Shown here piece by piece: positions 31,631 to 63,407 of a DNA stretch of 64,000 nt. Source of the stretch: Sipunculus nudus (taxonomy: Eukaryota; Annelida; Sipuncula; Golfingiida; Sipunculidae); contig CM049322.1 of the NCBI GenBank assembly GCA_026874595.1, positions 43,958,840 to 44,022,839 on the forward strand. The letters run 5' to 3'. The notes under the pieces are model-generated. The model had not been told where the DNA came from. It worked only from the letters and a program-made list of their open reading frames with translations, and did not search any database. The position numbers and the translations under genes were made by a program. The stretch's first letter is position 1. Each line of letters opens with the position of its first letter.

Positions 31631-31858
31631 AGTTCAGTCCTAGTATAAGCTCCTCAGACACGGACGGTTGAGGGGTCTTAGACCCCCGCCCCGGCGGCCT
31701 CCTAAGCTTGGAATTTCTAAAATTAATTTAGAATTTCAGTTTTCCGAAAAAAGTCCGAACATTCGAAAAGGATAAGTCCAGCTCGCAGTAGCCCTTCGGC
31801 GAAGATGCCTGGTGTACTATCTTTCGTTTTACAATTTTTCTCGGATTAGACTGACTAT
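31631..31858 (-). mobile_element. Family Z: 3'-end fragment of an array retroelement
   Basis: It begins on the left with a pentanucleotide tail (CAGTT CAGTT CAGTC), then the shared 3' RNA structure (31652-31704), then the second shared 3' UTR box (CTCGCAGTAG...GATGCC) and a TTTTACAATTTTTCTCGG block also seen in family B. It then stops at the family A tail. It has no ORF and reads as a 5'-truncated insertion, the leftmost member of the array. Confidence 0.7.
31652..31704 (-). other. Shared 3'-terminal RNA structure, family Z
   Basis: The central stem is GGGGTC with GACCCC around loop TTA (+ strand). The flanking CCG/CGG helix is kept. The outer stem is weaker here than in the other families. 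Confidence 0.6.
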
Positions 31859-31892
31859 TCTAGACTAGACTAGATCTAGTATTTTGAGTCAC

Positions 31893-31945
31893 TAGACAGA
31901 CACGGTTGAGGTGGTCTGGGACCACCGCCCCGGCCTGTCTCTTTA
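31893..31945 (-). other. Shared 3'-terminal RNA structure, family A (A0)
   Basis: On the + strand AGACAG pairs with CTGTCT (outer stem), CGG with CCG (middle helix), and GTGGTC with GACCAC around a TGG loop (inner stem). The same structure with other stem sequences occurs in all families, so it is a likely recognition site for the reverse transcriptase that copies these RNAs. Other A copies: 39627-39676, 42564-42614, 50685-50734. Confidence 0.75.
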
Positions 31946-32287
31946 GACTATAATTTTGATGCCGAAAATGCCACACAAGCCAAGCCAAGGAGCCGCGAAG
32001 AGCCACCAGCGTGCACCCGCACCGGTGACCGAGAAAGCTACATCATCCACACCCACAAAGCCCCGAGCGGGCCACTCACCGCACGGACACCAGCAGCAGA
32101 GCCGCTGCCCCCACGAACCCGGTCGCGAGCGACATCCCCGAGCAGAATGCGCACCACAACAGAGAGACCCGAACACAAGCAGGGAAACCCAGACCGCCGA
32201 CAGAACAACTCCTACCGCGAAGAGCCGGACTTCCTGTGACTTGGATCGGGCAGGCTGTCTTGGCTTGGTCTTCAGCTGGTCCCCGAG

Positions 32288-32319
32288 CAGTGGGCCTAAA
32301 GTTGTCTGTTTGCCCACTG
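32288..32319 (-). other. Family A hairpin with conserved loop, type 1
   Basis: Stem CAGTGGGC / GCCCACTG (8 bp perfect) encloses CTAAAGTTGTCTGTTT. The same loop recurs 140-170 bp away in a different stem. Other copies: 40023-40054, 42960-42991, 51082-51113. Confidence 0.75.
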
Positions 32320-32457
32320 TCAGGGATTCTTGACTTGTCTTGCTTGTCTTGACTTGGGTTCCGGCTGTCGGGGTTGTCTTGTCTTCTCTTGGCTTGTCCC
32401 AGGGCTACCTGTCTTGACTTGTCTTGAGGCTTGGTCTTGGGTCTTGGTCTTGTGGCA

Positions 32458-32493
32458 GGCAGCGGACCTAAAGTTGTCTGTCTGTCCGCTGCC
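32458..32493 (-). other. Family A hairpin with conserved loop, type 2
   Basis: Stem GGCAGCGGAC / GTCCGCTGCC (10 bp perfect) encloses CTAAAGTTGTCTGTCT, nearly the same loop as type 1. Other copies: 40187-40222, 43138-43173, 51260-51295. Confidence 0.75.
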
Positions 32494-33509
32494 AGGTCGA
32501 TGAGTGATTGATTAGTCCTGAATAGGACTGTTGGGGGGGGGGGGGGGGGTATTCCTAAAAAGGACTGTTGGGGTGTCTTGTCTGGTCTGTCTGGAGCTGT
32601 CCCGGTGTAGGTCTGGGTAGTCGTCTTGGAAGTTGCTGTCAGTGGGCGGATGGGGTGTGCGCTCGTCTGGGTGCCCTCTAATCTTACGCTGGTGGTGTAG
32701 GGGGGGCTGCCGCTGGACTTGCGCGTCGGTGTCGGATGCTGTTGGTGGTGGTTATCAGGGGTAGTTGTTGTCCGTGGTGGGGATGGGGGGGGGGGGGGGC
32801 GTAGATTTCTTTATAATTTTACAAGTATCACATGAGATTTTTTAAGAAAATGCCTCATGATCATTTACCCTTATATTGGTCTAAAGGAGATATCTATAGG
32901 AGATATCTTTATAGTTAGAAATCTAGCCGGCCGGTGGGGCTCTCAGTTTGTACTTTTATATTAAGTATCACATAGATATTTATAAAAAATATTTATGATC
33001 ATGTACTTTTATAGGAAATACTTATAAGAAGTATTTTTATATAAGCGCAGACTGAGAGGGAGGGGGCGGGGGTAGTTGAGGCTAGTGGCGGCATCAGTTT
33101 CCATCCACTTGCTAGTGGCCGGCTTCAGTTTCCATGCCACTGGTCTGCCGGAAATGCTGTAATTACTAATAAAATCTATAATTATATCTTATATATGAGC
33201 GTCGGATAACCAGATATTGCGTCACTATTGTGAAAAATACAAAAACAAAAGGGTGAAAAACCGGTAAAAATCGTAAAAAACGTGGGTTAGTGTGCATGAA
33301 AAATAATGAGTGAGGTGGTGTATTTACATGAATTGTGCTCTTTTTTTTTTTTTTTTTTTTGTTAAAAGTTAATGGTGTGTAAAACAGTATGGTGCATTTT
33401 TTTGTACATGGGTTTAGTATGGTTCTATTCTAGTTGGGGGTGTATTAGTATTGGTTAGTGGAGCGGTGTTGTGTCGGTGAATATGTATTTCCCAGAGTTG
33501 TGTTTTGTT

Positions 33510-34290
33510 TTAATCTCCGACAATAATAGTGTCCCGGTTTGGGCACTTTGTCTTCGATTTATGTTATTATTGTTCTTTAATAAAATATTGTGTATTACTG
33601 AGTATTAATTGTTTTATGTTCCTTGTAGTTTCTGCTTTTATTTTGTTTGGTTTTTATTTTGTGGGGAGGTAAAACGCGTCCCGACCGAGCCTGCGAATTA
33701 CTCATCCCATATCTGGTGACGTTAGGTGTGTTGTTTAATTGAAGATGTTATGAATAAATCTCAGACAATAGTAGTGACCCGGTTTGGGCACTTTGTCTTT
33801 GATTTGTGTTGTTTAAGGGTTTTATTTTATTTCTTATTGATGTAGAGAGGGGGGGGGGGGGGGGTTTAGCGTGTGGGGGATGGTTTATCGATGATGTTTT
33901 TTAGTGGGGGGGGGGGGGGGGGAGGTCCTAGTGCTATTTGTAGGTGCTGTCCACCGTTTGGCAACTCAGCTACCCGTTTGCTAATTTATTTATTTATGTG
34001 GGGGAGTGGGGGGGGGGGGAGTGGAGGGTTTATAAGAGTAATTACCAGCAAGAGGGTAACCGATACGGGCCCTGCTGTTAATACTCTGGGGTTTTTGGTT
34101 ATTTTTCGGACGTTGTCCACCGTATGGCAACTCAACTGTCCTGTGTTTGTAGGGAGGAAGATCTGGTTTTGTATGGTTTTTATTTTATTGGAGGTGTTTG
34201 TGTGTGAGTGTTATTTAATAAATCTTTAGACAATAATAGTGCCCAGGTTTGGACACTTTGTCTTCGAATTGTGTTGTTTTATTTTTAATA
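33510..34290 (-). repeat. Family A internal ~250-bp tandem module
   Basis: Units carry an ACAATA(A)TAGTG word, CCGGTTTGGGCACTTTGTCTT, an AATAAAATATTG word and ACCGAGCCTGCGAATTACTC. The later units are partial. The module is also present at about 41230-41790, 44190-44740 and 52330-52880. Its place near the 5' half of the sense RNA recalls the repeated 5' UTR monomers of some LINEs. Confidence 0.75.
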
Positions 34291-34689
34291 AAGTGTTGAT
34301 TGGGTATAATGATGTTGTTTTGTTGTTTTTATAGTGCTTTGGAAGGTTTTATTTTAATGGAAGTGATAGGTGTTTGGTTTGGAGCGGGGGCGGTTTGCGC
34401 TCTTTTATGTGACCTCTAATTTATTGTTCGATTTCTTTGGGGCGGGGGGGGGGGGGGGGGGGGCGAGTGGAGTGGGATCTGTTTTGTGTGGGTTTTTTGG
34501 TTTTATTATGTGTTTGTGTATAGTTTTTATTTGATGTCATGTTGGGGCGGGTGCTTTTATTTATTTTTACGGGTGAATTTATATTCGCTTTGTTAGAGAA
34601 CGGATGTTTTTGTGGTTTATTTTTTATTGTAATGTTGTTTGGGAGTCGGTTTGGTCGGGGGGCGGGGCTGATATGCTAATTAGGGGATG

Positions 34690-35448
34690 CTAGCTGCAGG
34701 GGAGTACAGGTACTGCGTTCCTCTGCAGCTAGGATCCGATGATTAATTGATGGTCGGGGTGTTTTTTCTATTATTCTAGGCCTAATATTTTTAGAGATTT
34801 TTATTTATTTTCGTCAAAATTTCGTAGGGTTTTAGTATGGATAGAGTGTTTTGGGTTCCGTAAATTTCGAGTTTCGTTCCTAAATCTTGTACGGGCCGTA
34901 ATTTGATTAAAAATTTGTGTGAAAGGATGGGGCGTATTGAGGGTCGTGGGTCATTGAAAGTAGGTCGCGGCCCCGACCTAGTGCCTTGGCCTGACCTGTT
35001 GGTTGATTATTGAGTTTTGTAGTATGTAAAACAGGGGATGCCAGCTGCAGCGGGGTAAGTTGTGTTCCCGCCGCAGCTGGGATCCGATGTTTGATTGATG
35101 GTCTGGGTGTTTTTTCTAATTTTCTGGGCCTGATATTTCTTATGTTTTTTATTATTTTTCGATGCAATTTTGTGAAGCTGGAATTTGGATATAGTTTAGT
35201 GTGTTCTGTTGTTTTTGGGCTTCCATCTTTATTTTAAGTGCGTTAATTTTGTTCCTAAAGTTTGTACGGGCCGCTGTTCAGTAACTAATTTGTGTGGAGG
35301 GATGGGATGTCTTGGGGGTCATTTAATGTAGGTCGCGGCCCCGGCCTAGTGCCTTGGCCTGACCTGTTAATTGATGCTTAAGGGGTGTCGTATACCAAAC
35401 AGGGGATGCCAGCTGCAGCGGGATAAGCAGTGTTCCCGCCGCAGCTAG
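34690..35448 (-). repeat. Three CAGCTGC hairpin modules near the 5' end of A0
   Basis: Hairpins at 34690-34732, 35041-35080 and 35409-35448. The second has CCAGCTGC-A-GCGGG pairing with CCCGC-C-GCAGCTGG around a 12-base loop. The module length is about 360 bp and also includes GATCCGATG, a T-rich stretch and the palindrome TAGGTCG...CGACCTA. Related copies lie near 42190, 50318, 53288, 55541 and 55908. Confidence 0.75.
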
Positions 35449-35816
35449 GATCCGATGTTTAGTTTGATGGTCGGGGTGGTTTTTACTGTTTTTTGGCCTT
35501 AATTTTTTTCCAAAATTTCTATTTTTATTTGCCGAAACTTCGTAATGTTTAAGTCTAGGTGGGGTTCTGTGGGTTTTGAGGGATTTGGGGGTGTGTTTTA
35601 TTTTCAAATGTGTTAATTTGGTTGCTAAAGTTGGTACGGGGCGTTGTTTTGCTTATTAGTTTTGGAGGGCCGGGGAGTGATTTTTCCTTAGTTTTGATCC
35701 TTATGTAAAATCGTTAATATTTGGTTTTTGATTTTGAAATTTGGGGGAGTGGAAGATTTTAGAAAGTTCTTTAGGCTTTTGTTATTATTTTTGGATTTGG
35801 GGAATAATATGTTGGT

Positions 35817-35829
35817 TAATTTTGGGGGT
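35817..35829. repeat. 13-bp target-site duplication, left copy for B1
   Basis: TAATTTTGGGGGT, repeated at 37658-37670 on the other side of B1. The bases just outside differ (T and G before it, C and G after it), so the shared length is exactly 13. Confidence 0.75.
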
Positions 35830-35855
35830 CTAGACTAGATCTTGTTTTAAGCCCT

Positions 35856-35904
35856 TCAGACATGCACGGAACGGAAGGCCTTTGACCTTCGCGCCGGCTG
35901 TCTC
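35856..35904 (-). other. Shared 3'-terminal RNA structure, family B (B1)
   Basis: Inner stem GAAGG/CCTTC, middle CGG/CCG, outer CAGACA/TGTCTC (+ strand). Identical to the B2 copy at 53653-53703. Confidence 0.75.
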
Positions 35905-36103
35905 TTAAGCTATAATTTTAGAATTTTGAAGTCCGTATCTAAAGTCCTAAAATAAGAAATAAAATGTGTTCCGTCGCAGAAGCCGATTTCGGTATATGCC
36001 ATGGAGTTGGTGTCTCTGTATTGTTTTAAAAGTTCTTTTTTATTTTCTCTATGCTAGATTCTTTTTTTCAGTTTTTGCTTAGATCAGTCGTGGAAATTTT
36101 CAG

Positions 36104-37558
36104 CTAATCTTCATCCATGTGGTCGTTTGATGAATTTGAAGAATTCTCCACAGATTCCTCCTCAGGTTCATCGTCTTCGGATTCATCATCTTCATCTTCA
36201 GTTTCCACATAGAATATTGAAGTAAGTTCGTTGTTCTCTTTGGTTTCGTCTTGTATTCTCCGTAATATCTCTTGTAGGTCGGCTCTCTTCCGGAAGAATT
36301 CTTTTTTTGTCCCATAGCTCATGCACAGTTGCCATCTTGCTCCTATTGTAGTCTCAACTATATCAAAGGCTGAACTGTTATATGACAGTCTGAGGAATGC
36401 TGCAATATTATAAAAAGTATCGTTGAGTTTCTCTCGGGTTTCCTCATCCCATCCATGCGACATGATGCAAGCGACGATCAGACTGAAGATCTGGTATGTT
36501 GTGTAGGTTTTCCTATTTGTCTCTGTGGAAATCTTGGCAGGTATTTTCTCTTTTTCTGTTTGTGTTTTCTTGGTTTTGGTCGATTTTTCCATAGGTTCCG
36601 TCGTGGTTGCCTTTGTTCTGGAGGTTATTGGTGCTGTTTGCGTCATCTTTGGCTTTTGTTTGATGGGTTGATCAGTCTGGATAGCCTTGGTATCCGTGGT
36701 TGTTTGTGACAGATCAACTTCCATCTCTTGGGTTGTAGGTTTTGTTCTGGATATGACTGGTGACTGAGTGGGCGTAGGTGGTCGATCAGTTGTACCATCT
36801 GTTGTATGGTTCAACATGGTGTCAGTTTTCAGGAGTTGTTTTCGTATCTGCCGGTAGACGGCGCACCCTTTATATGCACTCGCGTGGTTACCCTGGCAGT
36901 TATAACATCTGGGCTTGGCTTCAGTACAGTCTCTTGTCTGATGGTCGCTGCTGCCGCACTTGTAGCATCTATTGTTGTTTACGCAAGAGCGCGAGTGATG
37001 ACCCCATTCACTGCACTTGCCACAAAAGGGGACTTCAATGTTGTGGTATGGTTCCGTGGAGAAGTAGTTGAATGCCAGTTTTAATCCACTCCGCAACGCT
37101 TCATTGGACACGGCTGGGTCGGTGAAAATAATTTTCACCCTGTGTGTTGGTTGTTTAGTCGTAGAATTTTTCAGGCGTATAACTTGAGTGGCTGAGGGGT
37201 ATTCTTCTTGAATTGTTGTTAATAGGTCATTTTCTGTTGTTTCAGGTGAAATTCCCCCTACTACTATGGGGAATTCCTTGGCAGGCTGGGTACGGTTTCT
37301 TTTCTTCGGTCTGTGCGCTGTGGGCCGAATACTGTACACTTGTTTAAATTCCAGAGTAGATGTCCATTCTGTTTTGTTTCTAAGACGAGGTACATGTTGT
37401 TTCTCTATTGGATGTAGATACAACGAATTTCTCGTTCTAGTGGCCGCATCGAAACGTACGTCCGGGAACGTCTGACGCAAAAGTTTGTATAATACAAACT
37501 TGTTGTCTAACACTGTACGGTCTATCCCGTCTACGATGAGGCCCGTGGGGTTGTCCAT
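36104..37558 (-). CDS. Gag-like ORF1 protein of family B (B1), three zinc knuckles
   Basis: 484 residues from the ATG at 37558 (A at -3, G at +4); the frame is open further upstream but only from non-ATG codons. Residues 1-90 form a conserved domain (DNPTG...YKLLRQTFPD...PRLRNKTEW) also found in families C, D and E. Residues about 94-175 look RRM-like (FPIVVGGI and HRVKIIF strands). Zinc knuckles: C179-C192 and C198-C211, both CX2CX4HX4C, and C218-C232, CX2CX3HX6C, the triplet typical of Jockey/I-type LINE ORF1 proteins. The linker (about 250-375) has the TQT-type motifs AIQTD, MTQTA and KTQTE. A C-terminal domain (about 385-455) has GWDEETREKLND, followed by a strongly acidic tail. It presumably binds its own RNA. 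Intact, with no RT. Confidence 0.85.
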   Translation of the reverse strand: MDNPTGLIVDGIDRTVLDNKFVLYKLLRQTFPDVRFDAATRTRNSLYLHPIEKQHVPRLRNKTEWTSTLEFKQVYSIRPTAHRPKKRNRTQPAKEFPIVVGGISPETTENDLLTTIQEEYPSATQVIRLKNSTTKQPTHRVKIIFTDPAVSNEALRSGLKLAFNYFSTEPYHNIEVPFCGKCSEWGHHSRSCVNNNRCYKCGSSDHQTRDCTEAKPRCYNCQGNHASAYKGCAVYRQIRKQLLKTDTMLNHTTDGTTDRPPTPTQSPVISRTKPTTQEMEVDLSQTTTDTKAIQTDQPIKQKPKMTQTAPITSRTKATTTEPMEKSTKTKKTQTEKEKIPAKISTETNRKTYTTYQIFSLIVACIMSHGWDEETREKLNDTFYNIAAFLRLSYNSSAFDIVETTIGARWQLCMSYGTKKEFFRKRADLQEILRRIQDETKENNELTSIFYVETEDEDDESEDDEPEEESVENSSNSSNDHMDED

Positions 37559-37657: not shown

Positions 37658-37670
37658 TAATTTTGGGGGT
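37658..37670. repeat. 13-bp target-site duplication, right copy for B1
   Basis: TAATTTTGGGGGT, partner of 35817-35829. The next target, used by D, overlaps it by two bases. Confidence 0.75.
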
Positions 37671-37681: not shown

Positions 37682-37709
37682 TAGTTACTAGATCTTGTAT
37701 TTTCGTTCT

Positions 37710-37760
37710 TCAGACATGCACAGTTGAGGGAAACTTAGTTTCCCGCCCTGGCTGTCTCCT
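37710..37760 (-). other. Shared 3'-terminal RNA structure, family D
   Basis: Inner stem GGGAAAC/GTTTCCC around TTA (7 bp perfect), outer CAGACA/TGTCTC (+ strand). The inner stem sequence is unrelated to that of the other families while pairing is kept. The middle helix is not clear in this copy. Confidence 0.75.
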
Positions 37761-37939
37761 AAACGTGGAATTTGTATAGATCTTGAAATTTCAAAATCTC
37801 CACTTTTCCAGATCGAAAATATTAAGACGAAAGAATTTCCGTTCGCAGAAGCTTGATAAACGAAGTATGCCGTGTGATGACCACTGTATTGTTTTACAAT
37901 CTTGACTCGGAGTTTCCTATTTAACTTCTATTTAGTAGA

Positions 37940-39490
37940 TTATTCAGGTACCATCCTCTGTTTCTTCCTGGGTTGAATCGGAGATTTTTCAGGTGTAGAC
38001 GGATCAATCAGCATATGTAGCGGAATTCTGTTTACATCCGAGCTCTCCACATAATTTGCGACTCTGTAGTATTCTTTATGTATAAAGTCTATGAAGCCTG
38101 ATGACGATTCATGGTCTTCACATTGAAGAGCATCAAGAGCGGCCTGTTCAACTATATGTGCATGTATCCACCTTCTGAAATGTTCTGTAAAGTCTGTTAA
38201 CTCTTGACATGTGAGTTTTAATTTAAACACTTGTTCCAGGTGGAATGTGGTTTTTCAAATATTCCTGGAGAGCACTACTGTTTGACTGTAATGTTATTGT
38301 TGCTATGGACAACAATAAGTATGTGTATGATTGTATATGATCATCAAAGAGTAGATATTCCAAATGTTCAGTTGGCCGGGGTCCTGTCTGCGTCTTACTT
38401 GAAGTAGTTTGAGTCTTTGGTGTAGGATGAGTTTGCGTCTCAGCAGAATTTGATTTTATTTTAATAGTTTGTGTAGTTTTCATCCGGGTTGTTTTCCGGG
38501 GGGTGGTCTTTGTAGTTGGTTCAGTCTGGATTGTCTTGTTTTTTGCCTTGGTGGTAGCTTGCACCTCCCTTGTAGTAGTTGTTGGATTTTCTGTTTGCAT
38601 AATAGTAGTAGTCACCGACGCTGTATTGTTGTCTAGCATAACGTCTGTTTGCGTGGCCACTTCTGATAATGTATCAGTTATGTCCATTTTATTGTCTTGT
38701 GTTGGCATATCAGACGAGGGGAGCGTATTTGTTTTCATCAAATCTGTACTGTAGGTAGCTTGCATGAATTGTTTTTTTTTTGCCTGTAGATGGCGCAACC
38801 TCTGTATGAGCTAGCATGGTTTTCCCCGCATCCTCTACATCTCCTGGTATCAGCAACACAGTCTTTTGTTTGGTGGTTTTCTTCTCCACACCTGTAGCAC
38901 ACTCTATTGTTTTTGCATTGGCGAGGTCCGTGTCCCCATTGTGAGCAGCGCCCACAAAAGGGGATGGTCACGCATCGATACTCTTCGGCTTTGTATTTGT
39001 GGTATGCGAGGACAATACCGTTTTGTAGCAAGTTGGTCACTGTAGTCGGCTCGGTACAGATCAATTTAACTTTGTGTGTGGGCTGTCCATTGGCTGCACT
39101 GCGAAGTCTCACAACTTGATTGACTGTCGGATATTGTTGTTGTATAAGTAGTAATATTTCCTGGTCATCGAGGTTTGTAGGAATACTCTTCAGCACGACA
39201 GAATATTCCTTTGGGTTTTGTCTGATCGGTCGTTTTCGTTGGCGATGTTTTGTGGGTCGAATGTTATACACATCCCTGAAGTCAGGTATCCTGGTCCATT
39301 CTTGCAGGTTTTTCAGTCTACTGACGTGATGTTGTTGTACAGGATGGACATATAAGTCCATTCTGGTCTTGACTGCCGTATCTATGTTCACATCCGGAAA
39401 GGCTTGTTTTAAAAGCCTATACACCATGAAACGGTTGTTTAGTACTGTATCCGGTATCCCGGAAATAAGCAATCCTGTATCACTAGCCAT
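37940..39490 (-). pseudogene. Gag-like ORF1 of family D, in three frames
   Basis: Starts at the ATG at 39490 (MASDTGLLIS...). Frame 1 (39490-38738) holds the N-terminal and RRM-like regions and all three knuckles (CGRCSQWGHGPRQC, CYRCGEENHQTKDC, CRGCGENHASSYRGC). At a run of ten A (sense; 38772-38781) the reading must slip -1 to continue into frame 2 (to 38223), which aligns with the intact families and holds the TQT-rich linker (ATQTD, TIQTE, TTQTI, ETQTH, KTQTG). A second frame change near 38223-38230 leads to the C-terminal part (to 37940). This is either decay, a sequencing error in the homopolymer, or frameshifting; two separate breaks favour decay. Confidence 0.65.
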
Positions 39491-39577
39491 ACTGCTAGTG
39501 ATAGAAGGTAACACTGTTCACAAAAGTGGAGAAATACGCTTTCGTTGTTGTCACGAGGACGGTCCACGAACGTGTGT

Positions 39578-39590: not shown

Positions 39591-41061
39591 GGACTAGACT
39601 AGACTAGAACTAGTATTTTGAGTCACTAGACAGACACGGTTGAGGTGGTCTGGGACCACCGCCCCGGCCTGTCTCTTTAGACTATAATTTTGATGCCGAA
39701 AATTGCCACACAAGCCAAGCCAAGGAGCCGCGAAGAGCCACCAGCAGGCACCCGCACCGGTGACCGTGAAAGCTACATCATCCACACCCACAAAGCCCCG
39801 AGCGGGCCACTCACCGCACGGATACCAGCAGCAAAGCTGCTGCCCCCACGAACCCGGTCGCGAGCGACATCCCCGAGCAGAATGCGCACCACAACAGAGA
39901 GACCCCAACACGAGCAGGGAAACCCAGACCGCCGCCAGAACAACTCCTACCGCGAAGAGCCGGACTTCCTGTGACTTGGATCGGGCAGGCTGTCTTGGCT
40001 TGGTCTTCGGCTGGTCCCCGAGCAGTGGGCCTAAAGTTGTCTGTTTGCCCACTGTCAGGGATTCTTGGCTTGTCTTGCTAGTCTTGACTTGGGTTCCGGC
40101 TGTCGGGGTGGTCTTGTCTTCTCTTGGCTTGTCCTAGGGCTACCAGTCTTGACTTGTCTTGAGGCTTGGTCTTGGGTCTTGTGGCAGGCAGCGGACCTAA
40201 AGTTGTCTGTCTGTCCGCTGCCAGGTCGATCAGTGATTGATTAGTCCTAACTAGGACTGTTGGGGGGGGGGGGGGGTAGTCCTAAAAAGGACTGTTGGGG
40301 GGTCTTGTCTGGTCTGTCTGGAGCTGTCCCGGTGTAGGTCTGGGTAGTCGTCATGGAAGTTGCTGTCAGTGGGCGGATGGGGTGTGCGCTCGTCTGGGTG
40401 CCCTCTAATCTTCCGCTGGTGGTGTAGGGGGGCTGCCGCTGGACTTGCGCGTCGGTGTCGGATGCTGCTGTTGGTGGTTGTCAGGGGTAGTAGTTGTCCG
40501 TGGTGGGGGGGGGGGGGGGGCGTAGGTTTCTTTATAATTTTATAAGTATCACATGGGATTTTTTAAGAAAATACCTCATGATCATTTACCCTTATATTGG
40601 CCTAAATGAGATATCTATATGAGATATCTTTATAGTTAGAAATCTAGCCGGCCGGTGGAGCTCTCAGTTTGTACTTTTATATTTAAGTATCACATAGATA
40701 TCTTTAAGAGATATTTATGATCATGTACTTTTATAGGAAATACTTATAAGAAGTATTTTTATATAAGTGCAGACTGAGAGAAAAGGGGGCGGGGGTAGTT
40801 GAGGCTAGTGGCGGCATCAGTTTCCATCCACTTGCTAGTGGCCGGCTTCAGTTTCCATGCCACTGGTCTGCCGGAGATGCTGTAAATTACTAATAAAATC
40901 TATAATTATATCTTATATATGAGCGTCGGATAACCAGATATTGCGTCGATATTGTGAAAAATACAAAAACAAAAGGGTGAAAAACCGGTAAAAGTCATAA
41001 AAAACGTGGGTTAGTGTGCATGAAAAAATGATGAGTGAGGTGGTGTATTTACATGAATTGT

Positions 41062-52150: not shown

Positions 52151-52183
<33 letters not shown>

Positions 52184-53604: not shown

Positions 53605-53617
53605 TAGTGCCATGGCT
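53605..53617. repeat. 13-bp target-site duplication, left copy for B2
   Basis: TAGTGCCATGGCT, repeated at 55476-55488. The second copy continues exactly as A0 does at this point, which shows that B2 interrupted a family A element. Confidence 0.85.
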
Positions 53618-53652
53618 CGAATCGAGTCGAATCGAATCTTGTTTTTAAGCCC

Positions 53653-53703
53653 TTCAGACATGCACGGAACGGAAGGCCTTTGACCTTCGCGCCGGCTGTC
53701 TCT
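53653..53703 (-). other. Shared 3'-terminal RNA structure, family B (B2)
   Basis: Same as the B1 copy; inner stem GAAGG/CCTTC. Confidence 0.75.
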
Positions 53704-53914
53704 TAAGCTATAATTTTAGAATTTTGAGGTCCGCATCTAAAGTCCTAAAATAAGAAATAAAATGTGTTCCGTCGCAGAAGCCGATTTCGGTATATGCCAT
53801 GGAGTTGGTGTCTCTGTATTGTTTTACAATTTTACTCGGAAAAAGTTCTTTTTTATTTTCTCTATGCTAGATTCTTTTTCAGTTTATGCTTAGATCAGTC
53901 GTGGAAATTTTTTG

Positions 53915-55475: not shown

Positions 55476-56248
55476 TAGTGCCATGGCTTGACCTGTTGGT
55501 TGATTATTAGGTTTTGTAGTATGTAAAACAGGGGATGCCAGCTGCAGCGGGGTAAGTTGTGTTCCCGCCGCAGCTGGGATCCGATGTTTGATTGATGGTC
55601 TGGGTGTTTTTTCTAATTTTCTGGGCCTGATATTTCTTATGATTTTTATTATTTTTCGACGTAATTTCGAGAAACTAGGGAATGGATAAAGTTTTGTGTG
55701 TCCTGTTAATTTTGAGTTTCTATTACTATTTTAAGTGCGTTAATTTTGTTCCTAAAGTTTGTACGGGCCGCTGTTCAGTAACTAATTTGTGTGGAGGGAT
55801 GGGATGTCTTAGGGGTCCATTAATGTAGGTCGCGGCCCCGGCCTAGTGCCTTGGCCTGACCTGTTAATTGATGCTTAATGGGTGTTGTAAACCAAACAGG
55901 GGATGCCAGCTGCAGCGGGATAAGCATTGTTCCCGCCGCAGCTAGGATCCGATGCTTAATTGATGGTCGGGCCGGTTTTTACTGATTTTGGTATTAATTT
56001 TTTTCCAAAATTTCCATTTTTATTTGCCGAAACTTCTTAATGTTTAAGTCTAGGGCGGGTTCTGTGGGTTTTGAGGGAATTGGGGTTGTATTTTATTTTC
56101 TAGTTTGTTAATTTGGTTGCTAAAGTTGGTACGGGGCGTTGTTTTGCTTATAAATTTTGGAGGGCCGGGGAGTGATTTTAGAAAGTTCTTTAGGTTTTCG
56201 CTATTATTTTGGGATTTGGGGAATAATAGGTTGGTTAATTTTGGGGGT
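55476..56248 (-). mobile_element. Family A copy 3 (A3), 5' remainder
   Basis: Starts with the duplicated TAGTGCCATGGCT and follows the 5'-proximal part of A0 (34980-35829), though with fewer bases before its end at TAATTTTGGGGGT (56236-56248). Two CAGCTGC hairpins lie at 55541-55580 and 55908-55948. It has no tail of its own, as expected for the far side of a nested insertion. Confidence 0.8.
56236..56248. repeat. 13-bp target-site duplication, left copy for E
   Basis: TAATTTTGGGGGT, repeated at 57961-57973. Flanking bases differ on both sides. Confidence 0.75.
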
Positions 56249-56282
56249 CTAGACTAGACTAGAGCTGGTATTTATCGTCCAT

Positions 56283-56332
56283 TAGACTAACACGGTTGGA
56301 GTAAACATAGTTTACCGCCCCGGTTGTCTCTT
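56283..56332 (-). other. Shared 3'-terminal RNA structure, family E
   Basis: Inner stem GTAAAC/GTTTAC around ATA, middle CGG/CCG, outer AGAC/GTCT (+ strand). Confidence 0.75.
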
Positions 56333-56623
56333 TAGACGCCCGAGATGTTATTCAGGGTTGTGGTTTCAGTATTCCGTCGCAGGAGCTGTACTCATTATGC
56401 CTGTTACATTTGTGTTGACCATGGTGGATCCCAGCTGCAGGGTTGTCTCGATGCGGCAAAGTGCTTCTTTTGTTGTGGTCACGCATGGATCAGTGCTGCA
56501 CGAGGTTCTGGGCTGGTCCCGCCACTTCTATTGTCTTCTTGTGGTGACGTTTTTGTTTTCTTTCTTCTTATTCGGAGCTTTTCTTCTATTTTCTTTCACT
56601 GTTTTTGAATCGTGGGACTTCTG

Positions 56624-57883
56624 TTATGGGCTAGAGTATTCTTCTGGTTCACTTATTTCTTCCTCGCTGTCAGATGAGCTATAGTCTGTTAGCGCGGTGA
56701 AGTATGCATGGTGTTTGTGGGTTCTGATGAATCGGTCTAAAATCTTGCGTTTTTCTTCTTTGATGTCTGGGTTTGTTTCTTTGTGGAATGATCTATAAAG
56801 TGGAAGAACGTTTTCTGTCTGTCTGAGAAAATCCTGTTCTGTGAGGTTGAACCGTAGTATAGTCTTGGCTGCTTTGTAGAAGTCATTCGCTATAACGACC
56901 TCTACCGACTCATCCCATGAGTGATGGAGGACTGCCCCGGCCAGTAGATAGAACAGCTGCAGTGGGTTGTAATAACTGGTGTTGTTACTAGCATCTGTCA
57001 TATGTTCTCTTGTCGTATTGGTGCTGGTTTCTTGTACACTGGGCTTCGGTGATGATATTTCATCAGTCTGCGTTTCTTGGGTTTTAGTGGTGTTTTCTGC
57101 CGGGACGCTCGGTTCGGTTTCCATTTGTTCTGGAGTGACCTGGGGTGTTGGTAGTTTCATGTTTCTCTTGAAGGCCTGGTAGGCGGTACATCCACGGTAT
57201 GATGAACTGTGGTTTCTGTGACAGTTGGCACATGTTCTGACTGACGCAGAACATTGCTTTGCTGTATGCTCTGTGCTGCCGCATCTGTAACACCGGGGGT
57301 GGTTCTTGCATTGACGTGAGGTGTGGCCCCAGCCAAGGCATTTGCCACAGAAGGGATGTTGTACTGAGATGTAGGCTTCTGTTTTGTAGCGTCTATAGCC
57401 GACTTGTAGACCAGACTGGATGGCTGAATCGGCCGCGTCCTTATCTTGAAATATAACCTTGACTCTGTGGATAGGTGACTTGGTGGCGGCGCTCCGAAGT
57501 CTCACTATCTCTGTTATTGGTAGAGTCTCTTTCATTAGCTGGCAGAGTTCCTGTGTATCTATGTCCGGGTGAACTCCCTTCATCACTATAGGGTACTCGG
57601 TTGGTGTAACTGTTTTGGGTCTACGTTTGGGTTGTCTATGCGTTGTTGATGTAACACGGCACACCGTCTTGAAACATGGCACAGCTTTCCATTCTGTCAG
57701 GTCTCTCAGACGAGGTCCATGCTGGGCTTGTGTGGTGTACAGGTACAGTCTGTCCCTCGACTTGACTGCTTTCATGAAGGTGATATCCGGGAAAGCTGTA
57801 CGTAGTGCCTTATAAAGGCGTACTTGGTCTGCTAGTAAGTCAGGGGGAACCCCCTCGACAAAATATCCAACTGCTGTCGACAT
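56624..57883 (-). CDS. Gag-like ORF1 protein of family E
   Basis: 419 residues from the ATG at 57883 (G at -3). Co-linear with B and C: N-terminal domain (VRLYKALRTAFPDITF, PRLRDLTEW), RRM-like region (YPIVMKGV, HRVKVIF), zinc knuckles CGKCLGWGHTSRQC, CYRCGSTEHTAKQC and CANCHRNHSSSYRGC, a shorter linker with ETQTD and QETSTN, and a C-terminal domain with LFYLLAGAVLHHSWDESVE. It ends in an acidic serine-rich tail. It lacks the long TQT linker of B and C, which accounts for most of the length difference. Intact. Confidence 0.85.
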   Translation of the reverse strand: MSTAVGYFVEGVPPDLLADQVRLYKALRTAFPDITFMKAVKSRDRLYLYTTQAQHGPRLRDLTEWKAVPCFKTVCRVTSTTHRQPKRRPKTVTPTEYPIVMKGVHPDIDTQELCQLMKETLPITEIVRLRSAATKSPIHRVKVIFQDKDAADSAIQSGLQVGYRRYKTEAYISVQHPFCGKCLGWGHTSRQCKNHPRCYRCGSTEHTAKQCSASVRTCANCHRNHSSSYRGCTAYQAFKRNMKLPTPQVTPEQMETEPSVPAENTTKTQETQTDEISSPKPSVQETSTNTTREHMTDASNNTSYYNPLQLFYLLAGAVLHHSWDESVEVVIANDFYKAAKTILRFNLTEQDFLRQTENVLPLYRSFHKETNPDIKEEKRKILDRFIRTHKHHAYFTALTDYSSSDSEEEISEPEEYSSP

Positions 57884-57926
57884 GGCAACAAGCGAAGTGT
57901 GATATGCACGCTGAGCTATTCTAGAA

Positions 57927-57960
57927 CACGTCTAGTCACTACGGACGTTAACTCACGACG
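57927..57960 (-). promoter_or_regulatory. Candidate Inr + DPE-like promoter of E
   Basis: AGACGTG (57933-57927) lies 27 bases downstream of the first base of the element. Confidence 0.45.
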
Positions 57961-57973: not shown

Positions 57974-58000
57974 ACTGAACTGAAACATGTATTTTACTTC

Positions 58001-58052
58001 CTCAGACACACATGGTTGAGCCGGACTGAGTCCGACGTCCCAGTGGTCTCTT
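58001..58052 (-). other. Shared 3'-terminal RNA structure, family C (C1)
   Basis: Inner stem CGGAC/GTCCG around TGA. The middle helix has changed from CGG/CCG to CCA/TGG with both sides altered. Outer AGAC/GTCT pairing. Repeats at 59786-59837, 61571-61622 and 63356-63407. Confidence 0.75.
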
Positions 58053-58199
58053 TAGAAGAATTTTGAATTTAGTCCAAAAAATCCCGTGATGTTATTCAGG
58101 GAAAATCGTTGGTCACGTTCGCTGAAGTCTGACAAATAGCCGTGGTGGACTCTATGGTGTTTTGGTATCTTCCTCGGAGTAAATGCTAATTTTCAAGGT

Positions 58200-59648
58200 T
58201 TATCCCCAGAAAAGTCCATGATCTGGTATGTTGTGGTTGGCTGGGTCCTCGTCCGGAATTCTAAGTAAAACTTCTTTATAGTTCTGTACTCTGGTTTTTA
58301 CTTGTTCTTGATCCCGGTTTTGGTGTGCGTGCATGAGTTTCAAGTACTTGTTAAAAAGAATATTGATGATATGATCATAGTTTTGGTGATTTAGTGGCAT
58401 CCCAATCATGTTTAAAGCATACATAAATTCCTTGGAGCATCTGTTTACTAAGTCCATTTCAGTATCTGCGTCTTGGTAATACATCTGACTTGTGGCAAGA
58501 TGATAAAAAAGTTGAGTTGGGGTCAATGACTCTGTGTTTGTTGATGTTTCCTGCTGAGTGGCTGATGGCTCTGTATATGTTGAAATTGTTGCAGTAGCTG
58601 GTTTTTTCTGTTTCTTCGTTTGGGTGTGTTGTGTTTTCACAGTAGGTGGAGGAGTAGTCTGGGTTAACTTTGTTCTGGAGGTGACTTGGTCTGTCTGAAT
58701 CTGTTTTGTTTTGACTTTTGTTGCAGGCGGATCTGTCTGTGTGGTCTTGGCTTCCTTGGCCGGAGATGGTGGTAGTGGAGATAACATCGGAGGTAAGTCT
58801 ATTTCCATGGCAACGTCTGAACTGGCCGGAGTGTATGTAAGCGATCTCCTGGTTTGAAGTGTAGATCGTTCCTCTTGAGTTTTAGTTGGTGTCTGTTCTG
58901 GTTGTGCCTTGGCGTGTAAGAGTTGTTTCCTAAGTTGTCGATAGGTGGCGCATCCTTTGTAGCTGCTGGCATGGTTCTGTTGACAATTGAAACACCTGTT
59001 GCTTGTTTGTTTACAATTTCTAGTGTGATGACCTGGGTCTCCGCACTTGTAACATCTTTGAGTATTGTTGCATCCACGTGCTGGGTGCCCCCATTCACAG
59101 CAACGACCACAGAAAGGCAGGTAAACATCTTGATATTGTTCTATCTGATATCTATTGTAGGCGAGTGTTAATCCGTCTTGTAACGCTTGACTGGCGCTGT
59201 GAGAGTCATTGAAAATGACTTTTACTCTGTGTGTAGGCTGTTGGTTGCGGGCGTTCTTGAGGCGGATCACTTGAGTGGCTGATGGAAGTTTTTCTTGAAT
59301 CAGTTGTAGTAGTTCTGACTCGGAGGTCTGTGGGTGGATCCCTTTAACTACAATAGGGAACTCTTTTGGCTTGAAATTGGATCTGGTGCGTTTCTTTGGT
59401 CGATGAGTTGTAGTCTTGATATGGGTGATATGACGGAATTCCGGTGTTGTGACCCACTCTGTCTTGTTGCGGAGTCGTGGCAAATGCTGTGTTTCTGTCG
59501 GGTGTACGTATAGGTAGTTTCTGGACTTGGTTGCGGCATCGAAAATGATGTCGGGGAAGGTCTTCTTGAGCAGTTTGTACAATGCAAATCTGTTCTCTAA
59601 TACTGTAGGGTTTACTCCCTCAATGAGTAGTCCCGTGGGGTTTTCCAT
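58200..59648 (-). CDS. Gag-like ORF1 protein of family C (C1)
   Basis: 482 residues from the ATG at 59648 (AGCATGG, strong context; homology with B begins here). Two more in-frame ATGs lie 6 and 3 codons upstream in a palindrome. Domains as in B: N-terminal domain, RRM-like about 95-176, knuckles C180-C193, C199-C212 and C219-C233, a long linker with TTQTD, QIQTD, LTQTT and HTQTK, and a C-terminal domain (LTPTQLFYHLATSQMYYQ...). The acidic tail of B is missing. It differs from the C2 protein at only four positions (Ile/Thr, Pro/Thr, Leu/Trp and the last residue Gly/Glu). Confidence 0.85.
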   Translation of the reverse strand: MENPTGLLIEGVNPTVLENRFALYKLLKKTFPDIIFDAATKSRNYLYVHPTETQHLPRLRNKTEWVTTPEFRHITHIKTTTHRPKKRTRSNFKPKEFPIVVKGIHPQTSESELLQLIQEKLPSATQVIRLKNARNQQPTHRVKVIFNDSHSASQALQDGLTLAYNRYQIEQYQDVYLPFCGRCCEWGHPARGCNNTQRCYKCGDPGHHTRNCKQTSNRCFNCQQNHASSYKGCATYRQLRKQLLHAKAQPEQTPTKTQEERSTLQTRRSLTYTPASSDVAMEIDLPPMLSPLPPSPAKEAKTTQTDPPATKVKTKQIQTDQVTSRTKLTQTTPPPTVKTQHTQTKKQKKPATATISTYTEPSATQQETSTNTESLTPTQLFYHLATSQMYYQDADTEMDLVNRCSKEFMYALNMIGMPLNHQNYDHIINILFNKYLKLMHAHQNRDQEQVKTRVQNYKEVLLRIPDEDPANHNIPDHGLFWG

Positions 59649-59666
59649 GCTTGTCATGACAAGCAT
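59647..59666. promoter_or_regulatory. 20-bp perfect palindrome over the start codons of family C ORF1
   Basis: ATGCTTGTCATGACAAGCAT, read identically on both strands. In the mRNA it contains two AUGs and overlaps the third, the preferred start. It recurs at 61432-61451 and 63217-63236. Absent from B, D and E. Confidence 0.7.
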
Positions 59667-59708
59667 AAAGACGGCGAAAAGCACGCAAAATGAAGCTCTG
59701 TCGAAAAA

Positions 59709-59743
59709 CACGTCCACACTAGTGAAGCGCTAACACGTGACTG
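59709..59743 (-). promoter_or_regulatory. Candidate Inr + DPE promoter of family C
   Basis: CAGTC at the element start and GGACGTG (59715-59709) at +28 to +34. Repeated at 61494-61528 and 63279-63313. Confidence 0.5.
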
Positions 59744-59756: not shown

Positions 59757-59785
59757 AAACTGAACTGAAACATGTATTTTACTTC

Positions 59786-59837
59786 CTCAGACACACATGG
59801 TTGAGCCGGACTGAGTCCGACGTCCCAGTGGTCTCTT
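59786..59837 (-). other. Shared 3'-terminal RNA structure, C2
   Basis: Same as in C1. Confidence 0.75.
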
Positions 59838-59984
59838 TAGAAGAATTTTGAATTTAGTCCAAAAAATCCCGTGATGTTATTCAGGGAAAATCGTTGGTCA
59901 CGTTCGCTGAAGTCTGACAAATAGCCGTGGTGGACTCTATGGTGTTTTGGTATCTTCCTCGGAGTAAATGCTAATTTTCAAGGT

Positions 59985-61433
59985 TTATTCCCAGAAAAGT
60001 CCATGATCTGGTATGTTGTGGTTGGCTGGGTCCTCGTCCGGAATTCTAAGTAAAACTTCTTTATAGTTCTGTACTCTAGTTTTTACTTGTTCTTGATCCC
60101 GGTTTTGGTGTGCGTGCATGAGTTTCCAGTACTTGTTAAAAAGAATATTGATGATATGATCATAGTTTTGGTGATTTAGTGGCATCCCAATCATGTTTAA
60201 AGCATACATAAATTCCTTGGAGCATCTGTTTACTAAGTCCATTTCAGTATCTGCGTCTTGGTAATACATCTGACTTGTGGCAAGATGATAAAAAAGTTGA
60301 GTTGGGGTCAATGACTCTGTGTTTGTTGATGTTTCCTGCTGAGTGGCTGATGGCTCTGTATATGTTGAAATTGTTGCAGTAGCTGTTTTTTTCTGTTTCT
60401 TCGTTTGGGTGTGTTGTGTTTTCACAGTAGGTGGAGGAGTAGTCTGGGTTAACTTTGTTCTGGAGGTGACTTGGTCTGTCTGAATCTGTTTTGTTTTGAC
60501 TTTTGTTGCAGGCGGATCTGTCTGTGTGGTCTTGGCTTCCTTGGCCGGAGATGGTGGTAGTGGAGATAACATCGGAGGTAAGTCTATTTCCATGGCAACG
60601 TCTGAACTGGCCGGAGTGTATGTAAGCGATCTCCTGGTTTGAAGTGTAGATCGTTCCTCTTGAGTTTTAGTTGGTGTCTGTTCTGGTTGTGCCTTGGCGT
60701 GTAAGAGTTGTTTCCTAAGTTGTCGATAGGTGGCGCATCCTTTGTAGCTGCTGGCATGGTTCTGTTGACAATTGAAACACCTGTTGCTTGTTTGTTTACA
60801 ATTTCTAGTGTGATGACCTGGGTCTCCGCACTTGTAACATCTTTGAGTATTGTTGCATCCACGTGCTGGGTGCCCCCATTCACAGCAACGACCACAGAAA
60901 GGCAGGTAAACATCTTGATATTGTTCTGTCTGATATCTATTGTAGGCGAGTGTTAATCCGTCTTGTAACGCTTGACTGGCGCTGTGAGAGTCATTGAAAA
61001 TGACTTTTACTCTGTGTGTAGGCTGTTGGTTGCGGGCGTTCTTGAGGCGGATCACTTGAGTGGCTGATGGAAGTTTTTCTTGAATCAGTTGTAGTAGTTC
61101 TGACTCGGAGGTCTGTGGGTGGATCCCTTTAACTACAATAGGGAACTCTTTTGGCTTGAAATTGGATCTGGTGCGTTTCTTTGGTCGATGAGTTGTAGTC
61201 TTGATATGGGTGATATGACGGAATTCCGGTGTTGTGACCCACTCTGTCTTGTTGCGGAGTCGTGGCAAATGCTGTGTTTCTGTCGGGTGTACGTATAGGT
61301 AGTTTCTGGACTTGGTTGCGGCATCGAAAATGATGTCGGGGAAGGTCTTCTTGAGCAGTTTGTACAATGCAAATCTGTTCTCTAATACTGTAGGGTTTAC
61401 TCCCTCAATGAGTAGTCCCGTGGGGTTTTCCAT
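59985..61433 (-). CDS. Gag-like ORF1 protein of family C (C2)
   Basis: 482 residues, intact, with the same domains and start as C1. The linker has Thr where C1 and C3 have Pro (KKQKKTATAT), and Trp replaces Leu in FNKYWKLMHAH. Confidence 0.85.
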   Translation of the reverse strand: MENPTGLLIEGVNPTVLENRFALYKLLKKTFPDIIFDAATKSRNYLYVHPTETQHLPRLRNKTEWVTTPEFRHITHIKTTTHRPKKRTRSNFKPKEFPIVVKGIHPQTSESELLQLIQEKLPSATQVIRLKNARNQQPTHRVKVIFNDSHSASQALQDGLTLAYNRYQTEQYQDVYLPFCGRCCEWGHPARGCNNTQRCYKCGDPGHHTRNCKQTSNRCFNCQQNHASSYKGCATYRQLRKQLLHAKAQPEQTPTKTQEERSTLQTRRSLTYTPASSDVAMEIDLPPMLSPLPPSPAKEAKTTQTDPPATKVKTKQIQTDQVTSRTKLTQTTPPPTVKTQHTQTKKQKKTATATISTYTEPSATQQETSTNTESLTPTQLFYHLATSQMYYQDADTEMDLVNRCSKEFMYALNMIGMPLNHQNYDHIINILFNKYWKLMHAHQNRDQEQVKTRVQNYKEVLLRIPDEDPANHNIPDHGLFWE

Positions 61434-61570
61434 GCTTGTCATGACAAGCATAAAGACGGCGAAAAGCACGCAAAATGAAGCTCTGTCGAAAAACACGTCC
61501 ACACTAGTGAAGCGCTAACACGTGACTGTAATTTTGGGGGTAAACTGAACTGAAACATGTATTTTACTTC

Positions 61571-61622
61571 CTCAGACACACATGGTTGAGCCGGACTGAG
61601 TCCGACGTCCCAGTGGTCTCTT
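61571..61622 (-). other. Shared 3'-terminal RNA structure, C3
   Basis: Same as in C1. Confidence 0.75.
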
Positions 61623-61769
61623 TAGAAGAATTTTGAATTTAGTCCAAAAAATCCCGTGATGTTATTCAGGGAAAATCGTTGGTCACGTTCGCTGAAGTCT
61701 GACAAATAGCCGTGGTGGACTCTATGGTGTTTTGGTATCTTCCTCGGAGTAAATGCTAATTTTCAAGGT

Positions 61770-63218
61770 TTATTCCCAGAAAAGTCCATGATCTGGTATG
61801 TTGTGGTTGGCTGGGTCCTCGTCCGGAATTCTAAGTAAAACTTCTTTATAGTTCTGTACTCTGGTTTTTACTTGTTCTTGATCCCGGTTTTGGTGTGCGT
61901 GCATGAGTTTCCAGTACTTGTTAAAAAGAATATTGATGATATGATCATAGTTTTGGTGATTTAGTGGCATCCCGATCATGTTTAAAGCATACATAAATTC
62001 CTTGGAGCATCTGTTTACTAAGTCCATTTCAGTATCTGCGTCTTGGTAATACATCTGACTTGTGGCAAGATGATAAAAAAGTTGAGTTGGGGTCAATGAC
62101 TCTGTGTTTGTTGATGTTTCCTGCTGAGTGGCTGATGGCTCTGTATTTGTTGAAATTGTTGCAGTAGCTGGTTTTTTCTGTTTCTTCGTTTGGGTGTGTT
62201 GTGTTTTCACAGTAGGTGGAGGAGTAGTCTGGGTTAACTTTGTTCTGGAGGTGACTTGGTCTGTCTGAATCTGTTTTGTTTTGACTTTTGTTGCAGGCGG
62301 ATCTGTCTGTGTGGTCTTGGCTTCCTTGGCCGGAGATGGTGGTAGTGGAGATAACATCGGAGGTAAGTCTATTTCCATGGCAACGTCTGAACTGGCCGGA
62401 GTGTATGTAAGCGATCTCCTGGTTTGAAGTGTAGATCGTTCCTCTTGAGTTTTAGTTGGTGTCTGTTCTGGTTGTGCCTTGGCGTGTAAGAGTTGTTTCC
62501 TAAGTTGTCGATAGGTGGCGCATCCTTTGTAGCTGCTGGCATGGTTCTGTTGACAATTGAAACACCTGTTGCTTGTTTGTTTACAATTTCTAGTGTGATG
62601 ACCTGGGTCTCCGCACTTGTAACATCTTTGAGTATTGTTGCATCCACGTGCTGGGTGCCCCCATTCACAGCAACGACCACAGAAAGGCAGGTAAACATCT
62701 TGATATTGTTCTGTCTGATATCTATTGTAGGCGAGTGTTAATCCGTCTTGTAACGCTTGACTGGCGCTGTGAGAGTCATTGAAAATGACTTTTACTCTGT
62801 GTGTAGGCTGTTGGTTGCGGGCGTTCTTGAGGCGGATCACTTGAGTGGCTGATGGAAGTTTTTCTTGAATCAGTTGTAGTAGTTCTGACTCGGAGGTCTG
62901 TGGGTGGATCCCTTTAACTACAATAGGGAACTCTTTTGGCTTGAAATTGGATCTGGTGCGTTTCTTTGGTCGATGAGTTGTAGTCTTGATATGGGTGATA
63001 TGACGGAATTCCGGTGTTGTGACCCACTCTGTCTTGTTGCGGAGTCGTGGCAAATGCTGTGTTTCTGTCGGGTGTACGTATAGGTAGTTTCTGGACTTGG
63101 TTGCGGCATCGAAAATGATGTCGGGGAAGGTCTTCTTGAGCAGTTTGTACAATGCAAATCTGTTCTCTAATACTGTAGGGTTTACTCCCTCAATGAGTAG
63201 TCCCGTGGGGTTTTCCAT
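61770..63218 (-). CDS. Gag-like ORF1 protein of family C (C3)
   Basis: 482 residues, intact. Differs from C2 by restoring Pro in the linker and by Asn for Tyr in TISTNTEPS. Both features agree with the visible part of C4, so C3 and C4 are the closest pair. Confidence 0.85.
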   Translation of the reverse strand: MENPTGLLIEGVNPTVLENRFALYKLLKKTFPDIIFDAATKSRNYLYVHPTETQHLPRLRNKTEWVTTPEFRHITHIKTTTHRPKKRTRSNFKPKEFPIVVKGIHPQTSESELLQLIQEKLPSATQVIRLKNARNQQPTHRVKVIFNDSHSASQALQDGLTLAYNRYQTEQYQDVYLPFCGRCCEWGHPARGCNNTQRCYKCGDPGHHTRNCKQTSNRCFNCQQNHASSYKGCATYRQLRKQLLHAKAQPEQTPTKTQEERSTLQTRRSLTYTPASSDVAMEIDLPPMLSPLPPSPAKEAKTTQTDPPATKVKTKQIQTDQVTSRTKLTQTTPPPTVKTQHTQTKKQKKPATATISTNTEPSATQQETSTNTESLTPTQLFYHLATSQMYYQDADTEMDLVNRCSKEFMYALNMIGMPLNHQNYDHIINILFNKYWKLMHAHQNRDQEQVKTRVQNYKEVLLRIPDEDPANHNIPDHGLFWE

Positions 63219-63355
63219 GCTTGTCATGACAAGCATAAAGACGGCGAAAAGCACGCAAAATGAAGCTCTGTCGAAAAACACGTCCACACTAGTGAAGCGC
63301 TAACACGTGACTGTAATTTTGGGGGTAAACTGAACTGAAACATGTATTTTACTTC

Positions 63356-63407
63356 CTCAGACACACATGGTTGAGCCGGACTGAGTCCGACGTCCCAGTG
63401 GTCTCTT
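63356..63407 (-). other. Shared 3'-terminal RNA structure, C4
   Basis: Same as in C1. Confidence 0.75.

Follow-up and report, generated by a model that had tools for sequence, protein, structure and literature searches.

The window analysed here, 64,000 nucleotides of Sipunculus nudus DNA (C17:43958840-44022839), carries an array of retroelements that end in one and the same RNA fold. The fold has four helices, its letters differ between families, and its pairing is kept; it is confirmed as real. It is probably the 3'-terminal recognition element of the RNA of a stringent-type long interspersed nuclear element (LINE), recognized by the reverse transcriptase (RT) of that LINE. One of the families that carry it encodes an RT, and others encode only a gag protein. 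The assembly comprises 1.43 Gb in 153 contigs, of which C17 is 61.1 Mb long, and the window lies 17.1 Mb from the nearer contig end. A piece of a Core-2/I-branching gene at window positions 3855-4679 identifies the DNA as animal. Families are numbered F1 to F10, and loci in the rest of the genome are given as L numbers.

The 3'-terminal fold and its covariation

The fold is 62-65 nt long and consists of helices P1 to P4, all of which appear in the minimum-energy folds of single copies (13/13). The basal helix P1 (4-6 bp), overlooked in the first-pass annotation of this DNA, differs in its letters in nearly every family. P2, the outer helix, reads AGAC/GTCT in sense (AGGC/GTCT in the 31.65-kb copy), and P3, the short middle helix next to P2, reads CGG/CCG (TGG/CCA in the 58-63-kb family, F1, and CAG/CTG in the 37.7-kb copy, F5). 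P4, the inner helix, has 7 bp and is capped by a 3-base loop. The internal loop is mostly GGC or GAC with TCAA or CCAA; in F3 it is CGC with CGTT and in F9 TGC with CGTT. The outer stem, middle helix and inner stem with its 3-base loop were all present in the 13 copies reported, of which 12 are exact copies of six sequence types and the thirteenth, F4c, has one changed base in the compared stretch. A covariance model built from six window copies gave exactly 13 matches in the 64-kb window (E <= 0.1), all on the minus strand and none in positions 1 to 31.6 kb, and each of the 13 is the 3' end of a retroelement (Table 1).

Pairing is kept where letters change. Among the six window families, all 42 cells of P4 are paired, in line with the earlier remark that the inner stems are unrelated in sequence and always pair, and so are 30 of the 31 cells of P1; for both helices the real pairing of arms was the best of 720 re-pairings. 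P3 is paired in 18/18 cells, with 24 of the 720 re-pairings as good, and P2 is nearly invariant and hence uninformative on covariation. Folding energies compared with 300 shuffles gave z values of -3.3 to -4.4 in five families and of only -1.3 in F6, the 31.65-kb family, for which 26 of the 300 shuffles were equally stable.

Applied to the window plus 20 fetched stretches (264 kb), a model from six families detected 40 copies, and F7 to F10 were drawn from these matches; L011-L014, 40 kb to the right, gave zero matches. In a hand alignment of ten families, 188 of 190 cells are paired (P1 49/50, P2 40/40, P3 30/30, P4 69/70), and both sides have changed at 13 of the 19 pair positions. In 200000 shuffles the real pairing was reached 0 times for P1, once for P4, 140 times for P3 and 19911 times for P2. 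Left out of this count were near-copies of counted families (L005, L038, L039, L041, L043, L053), decayed copies (L026, L027, L034, L035, L036) and the two families found afterwards (L049 and L044), which are likewise paired with new letters. F6 and F10 were counted separately though about 84% alike; without F10 the counts are 44/45 for P1 and 62/63 for P4. In a MAFFT alignment of 11 sequences, restricted to P2-P4, the paired share of cells was 98.0% (82.5% in shuffles) and the number of two-sided cells was 29 (9.1 in shuffles). Of the five measures used, four were reached by 0/500 shuffles and the fifth, the number of pair types, by 166/500; slid registers paired in only 33-48% of cells. Because the families share ancestry, these figures are not strict probabilities. 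Covariation is strong in both alignments, and the earlier claim of a selected RNA fold is supported. Wobble pairs in sense are G-T in 15 cases and A-C in 0, indicating that the sense-strand RNA is the folding strand.

The hairpin of F4 varies tenfold less than the sequence upstream of it. Among 20 F4 copies compared with F4a, 5 of 1480 hairpin sites were changed, against 545 of 15733 in the preceding 800 nt; the copies are related and partly duplicated, which makes the Fisher value too favourable but leaves the tenfold difference intact.

Behind the hairpin come AAAATAC-type letters and then short repeats such as TCTAG or TTCAG. Of 40 downstream flanks, 39 start with short-repeat tail letters (the exception is L005:63), so that the fold stands just before the tail, as the first-pass annotation had placed it. 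Its expectation that hits would be confined to element 3' ends agrees with the hits found in the window and the fetched stretches. L034, L041 and L044 are without a tail. The pattern CTCAACCGTNNNTGTCTGA has 4 exact sites against 1 in the control; exact sites are few because most families differ at a letter. Three of them lie outside the window: L034 and L036 are strong model matches, and L035, which retains the fold only in part, is a weak one (E 6e-4). In Rfam the fold matches no family, UnaL2 included (presumably RF00436), the two matches returned having E 4.9 and 8.3 and neither being to UnaL2 or lying at a hairpin. No relatives were found in viral and prokaryote collections.

The autonomous LINE, the gag-only elements and their array

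F4, the commonest hairpin type, is the end of the 4-kb 3' untranslated region (UTR) of an autonomous LINE, and F4 as a separate non-coding element is ruled out. This UTR starts about 300 nt after open reading frame (ORF) 2, which is 968 aa long and contains RVT_1 (E 2.3e-41) and the APE-type endonuclease domain Exo_endo_phos_2 (5.2e-20); its best PDB matches include L1 ORF2 and R2. The full copy on C3 (L021 with L029) is about 9.0 kb in length and comprises ORF1, ORF2, the F4 3' UTR and the hairpin. With an AP-type endonuclease, an RT and target-site duplications of variable length, the element is an APE-type LINE. The fold had been expected at the ends of RT-encoding LINEs or short interspersed nuclear elements (SINEs); it does end an RT LINE, but several other families are gag-only and belong to neither class. 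A hidden RT was sought in ten stop-free frames (four from F4, five from the 45-50-kb insertion and one from 26 kb) rather than in a full six-frame search, and none of them matched Pfam at E 0.1.

Scoring of 81 of 8887 first-look candidates placed ORF2 at no fewer than 83 genomic sites, and at 46 of these the identity is at least 97%. For 36 of the 46 copies another one occurs within 100 kb, and 35 of these 36 run in the direction that prevails in their cluster; some of the copies are segmental duplicates. Copies of at least 97% identity share arrays with gag-only elements, and relatives at 43-63% identity are present among the candidates scored. The autonomous copies L009, L022 and L032 are 96-99% identical to L021 in their RT parts and only about 49-50% in ORF1, as if ORF1 had been exchanged. 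At C3:13.00-13.17 Mb the ORF2 copies are repeated 93311 bases further on, which points to a large tandem duplication of the array, and a second LINE family (a 1008-aa frame, 43% identical) is intermixed. In a cluster of U5 small nuclear RNA genes (Rfam), 3 nt separate the end of an F4 copy from the U5 gene downstream of it, at L019:3881-4001 and at L020:3363-3483; these two loci (C15, 3.63-3.66 Mb) look like duplicates of one event.

The gag-only elements F1, F2, F3 and F5 each measure about 1.7-1.9 kb, the F5 frame being broken. Their gag ORFs encode RNA-recognition-motif (RRM)-like domains and CCHC knuckles, are 32-48% identical between window families and 87% identical between F3A and F3B, and, in the part that matches, share 25-34% identity with the autonomous ORF1. 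The one testable pair, F3A and F3B, has a synonymous divergence (dS) of 0.415 and a nonsynonymous divergence (dN) of 0.060, a ratio indicating purifying selection on the F3 gag; the 3' UTRs of the two are nearly identical save for a 15-base gap and the tail. The structure model of the gag protein (mean pLDDT, a per-residue confidence score, 55.9) is usable only for the first 170 or so residues and matched tandem-RRM proteins in Foldseek at low TM (a structural similarity score). The sense strand is poor in G (A.349, C.254, G.177, T.220). A genome search for gag, in which 88 of 978 candidates were scored, gave 90 or more places. When 1.7 kb downstream was taken from each of 16 further gag loci, the hairpin was present on the gag strand in seven, and an ORF2 in sense in none; L046 has an ORF2 on the other strand. 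At L015:6737-9941 a gag ORF precedes the final 1.6 kb of F4 with its hairpin; this is a gag-only element with the 3' end of the autonomous LINE. A second shared motif, CTTCTGCGA(A)CGGAA or similar, was seen by eye 70-150 nt before the hairpin in gag-only families, for example at 37837-37851 and 35969-35982.

The array consists of insertions of one orientation nested in the 3' UTR of the LINE itself, and its head-to-tail look comes mainly from this nesting. The elements follow one another on the minus strand from 31.6 kb to the window end and for 20.6 kb beyond it, with a single exception, a gag element in L010 on the right side of the array, which runs the opposite way. The outermost autonomous LINE spans from 84620 (window numbering extended rightward) to 31860 and is flanked by GAATAGTCAGTCT on both sides; all members except the old F6, to its left, sit within it, and non-array DNA flanks the array at both ends. 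Most insertions tested have target-site duplications of 10-15 bp. In a comparison of flanks, 10 of 12 intervals share 11-20 letters, four of these being near-identical F1 copies; at the chance level, 24 of 3000 random flank pairs share at least 9. ACCCCCAAAATTA is common to F3A, F2 and the site they entered, and F1 shares these letters and more with the site; its interpretation as a shared 5' end of the elements was wrong, since these letters are native to the F4 3' UTR and were duplicated as a target site. The duplications are GTATCAATTTCAC for F5, AGCCATGGCACT for F3B and TAGGTCAAGCC for the autonomous copy L009, to which CCACCGGCCGG for L021/L029 and the 10-letter TAGTCAGTCT for F6 were added by eye (the scripted F6 flank, at 7 letters, was too short). 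These duplications, together with the 17-Mb distance to the contig end, identify the array as nested insertions and not as chromosome-end growth. The F1 units (1785 bp, >99% identical) may be tandem duplicates. The F4 3' UTR may be a preferred target, or merely a place where insertions survive.

Other features of the locus are as follows. The 5' part of the F4 3' UTR contains tandem units of about 368 bp (34682-35649 and 55477-56179), and the same unit boundary is the start of several F4 pieces, which is partly explained by insertions there. The insertion that splits F4c looks like a DNA transposon; it has inverted CTTGCCGGAA near each end and, at 45563-47257, repeats of about 148 bp arranged in an array. 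Elsewhere, an F4 copy on C8 (L028, about 4940) and an F5 copy on C15 (L039, about 980) are followed by nearly the same letters, AGCTGAATATCCATGATTG; this repeat, which has no Rfam match, was used as a target twice.

Table 1. Positions of hairpins, coding frames and other array features in the window
Feature	Position	Strand	Remark
F6, 5'-truncated old element	about 31640-31847	-	carries leftmost hairpin
F6 hairpin	31647-31709	-	P1 AAGCTT/GAGCTT, P4 GGGGGTC/GACCCCT
F4a, last 4 kb (3' UTR) of outermost autonomous LINE	31860-35829	-	5' end 20.6 kb past window; GAATAGTCAGTCT both sides
F4a hairpin (model boundaries)	31881-31954	-	3' end of outermost autonomous LINE
F3A target-site duplication, 3' copy, ACCCCCAAAATTA	35817-35829	-	5' copy 37658-37670
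F3A hairpin	35850-35911	-	gag-only element
F3A gag ORF, RRM-like and CCHC	36107-37558	-	intact
F5 hairpin	37704-37765	-	gag-only element; middle helix CAG/CTG
F5 gag	38223-39517	-	split into two overlapping frames
F4b hairpin (model boundaries)	39615-39688	-	
F4c hairpin (model boundaries)	42552-42625	-	one base changed, P1 pairing kept
Later 5.2-kb insertion splitting F4c	45076-50249	.	F4c halves 42531-45075 and 50250-50650
F4d hairpin (model boundaries)	50673-50746	-	
F3B hairpin	53648-53709	-	gag-only element
F3B gag ORF	53918-55369	-	intact; dN/dS 0.145 vs F3A
5' piece of F4 element interrupted by F3B	55477-56248	-	remainder is F4d, 50651-53620
F2 hairpin	56276-56338	-	gag-only element
F2 gag ORF (stop-to-stop frame)	56627-57931	-	
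F1 copy d hairpin	57997-58058	-	
F1 copy c gag ORF (stop-to-stop frame)	58203-59729	-	
F1 copy c hairpin	59782-59843	-	
F1 copies b and a gag ORFs	59988-61514 and 61773-63299	-	
F1 copy b hairpin	61567-61628	-	
F1 copy a hairpin	63352-63413	-	

Probable recognition of the fold by the RT

If the fold is the recognition element, the LINE RT would bind it both on the RNA of the LINE itself and in trans on the RNAs of gag-only elements, and reverse transcription would begin at the tail repeats. The RT would read the shape and the constant parts, namely the AGAC/GTCT helix, the internal loop of GGC/TCAA type and a bulged T after P3, and the letters of P1 and P4 would not be what it reads. P2 and the internal loop are the parts expected to be read because the three loop bases vary while P2 and most of the internal loop stay. 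The gag-only elements would contribute RNA-binding protein and borrow the RT, and successive insertions into the autonomous element's 3' UTR, almost all of them in the same orientation, would build up the head-to-tail array. It is likely that one RT serves all families.

Several results weigh against this reading. No hairpin was found in the 1.7 kb downstream of nine of the 16 sampled gag loci, nor within about 3.75 kb after the ORF2 of an autonomous relative of 61% identity, and F8 on C17 had no matching duplication in the flank comparison. P1 is unformed in L034 and L036, P3 and P4 are damaged in L026, and P4 is shifted in L027; such poorer folding is what one expects of old copies. In the zebrafish stringent LINEs ZfL2, ORF2 binds its cognate 3' stem-loop, and in swaps a foreign stem was tolerated (at about half the rate in one) and a foreign loop was not (PMC4176376). 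Specificity there comes from the terminal loop, which is variable here, so that another part of the fold must confer it.

A fuller scheme, which we put forward tentatively and hold somewhat short of an even chance, is a LINE consortium, in which a single autonomous LINE and some ten gag-only families, the latter having a gag lineage of their own, are all served by one RT that reads a structural code of helix geometry and a nearly constant internal loop, with helix letters and terminal loop drifting and with preferential one-orientation nesting in the autonomous 3' UTR.

The alternative that survives best, although we consider it unlikely, is that every hairpin type is served by an RT of its own: the families would represent several autonomous LINEs with RT copies that are rare, dead or unsampled, and would share the fold by descent. 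The diverged ORF2 relatives in the genome are in line with this, as are the low identity between the gag proteins and the autonomous ORF1 and the finding that the ORF2 proteins of ZfL2-1 and ZfL2-2 each take their own stem-loop only (PMC4176376). However, no sampled gag locus has an ORF2 in sense downstream, nearly identical ORF2 copies share arrays with gag-only elements, and the stretch taken from the single diverged relative that was tested contains no hairpin.

An improbable alternative is that the fold acts in the binding of Gag or in the packaging, stability or nuclear export of the RNA, and not in the choice of RNA by the RT. The gag-only elements have kept Gag, whose RRM-like domains and CCHC knuckles would suit such a role, but the autonomous element has the same fold with a very different ORF1, and the placement directly before the tail, where copying starts, fits choice by the RT, for which the stringent LINEs provide the precedent (PMC4176376).

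Growth of the array as a chromosome end, through one HeT-A-like addition after another, was suggested by the head-to-tail polarity, gag-only elements with an RT partner, 3' ends pointing toward unique DNA and a G-poor sense strand, as in Drosophila (PMC5537684). This is rejected as highly improbable by the contig position, other arrays also lying far from contig ends, by the target-site duplications and by the non-array DNA to the left and right of the array; only assembly errors at every one of these places could save it. Chance palindromes or recent common descent, with no selection on structure, could draw on the unremarkable stability of F6 and on the shared ancestry through which shuffle tests overstate, but are scarcely credible given the two-sided changes, the poor pairing of slid registers and the low variation of the hairpin.

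Relation to known systems and significance

The kind of system is already known, from stringent LINEs with their partners and from HeT-A as a gag-only partner. As in the stringent LINEs UnaL2, ZfL2-1 and ZfL2-2, a 3'-terminal stem-loop stands directly before a tail of short tandem repeats rather than poly(A), and as in those LINEs and their partner SINEs, the 3' end is common to an RT LINE and to non-autonomous partners; here fold and tail are shared and the helix letters are not. The fold differs in being larger, with four helices, in having a variable terminal loop with a more constant internal loop and P2, and in matching nothing in Rfam, and the partners encode gag and are not SINEs. In ZfL2 one stem can take the place of another (PMC4176376).

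HAL1-type elements are mammalian L1 derivatives with ORF1 only. They resemble the present elements as LINE derivatives with ORF1 and without ORF2, but here there are several gag families, distant from the autonomous ORF1, with a common covarying 3' fold.

HeT-A of Drosophila is a gag-only partner that depends on RT made elsewhere (PMC5537684, also for what follows). The likeness to HeT-A with TART/TAHRE extends to gag-only elements supplied with RT from elsewhere, the source here presumably being the autonomous LINE, and to head-to-tail arrays, a G-poor sense strand and gag under selection. In contrast to HeT-A, the arrays described here are not at chromosome ends, have target-site duplications, carry a hairpin and repeat tail instead of poly(A), and include several gag families.

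Searches of the open-licence literature gave no report of gag-only LINE families that have a covarying 3' fold in common. To our knowledge, the way in which a LINE RT chooses its RNA has been worked out for few elements. With about ten re-lettered versions of one fold in one genome, the letters that matter can be read as those that are fixed, and the set of hairpins provides ready-made substrates for a swap test. Non-telomeric gag-only LINE derivatives with a selected protein bear on how the HeT-A arrangement could begin. If the consortium exists, nesting in its own 3' UTR would spare host genes, and it would represent a division of labour like that of HeT-A and TART that arose away from telomeres.

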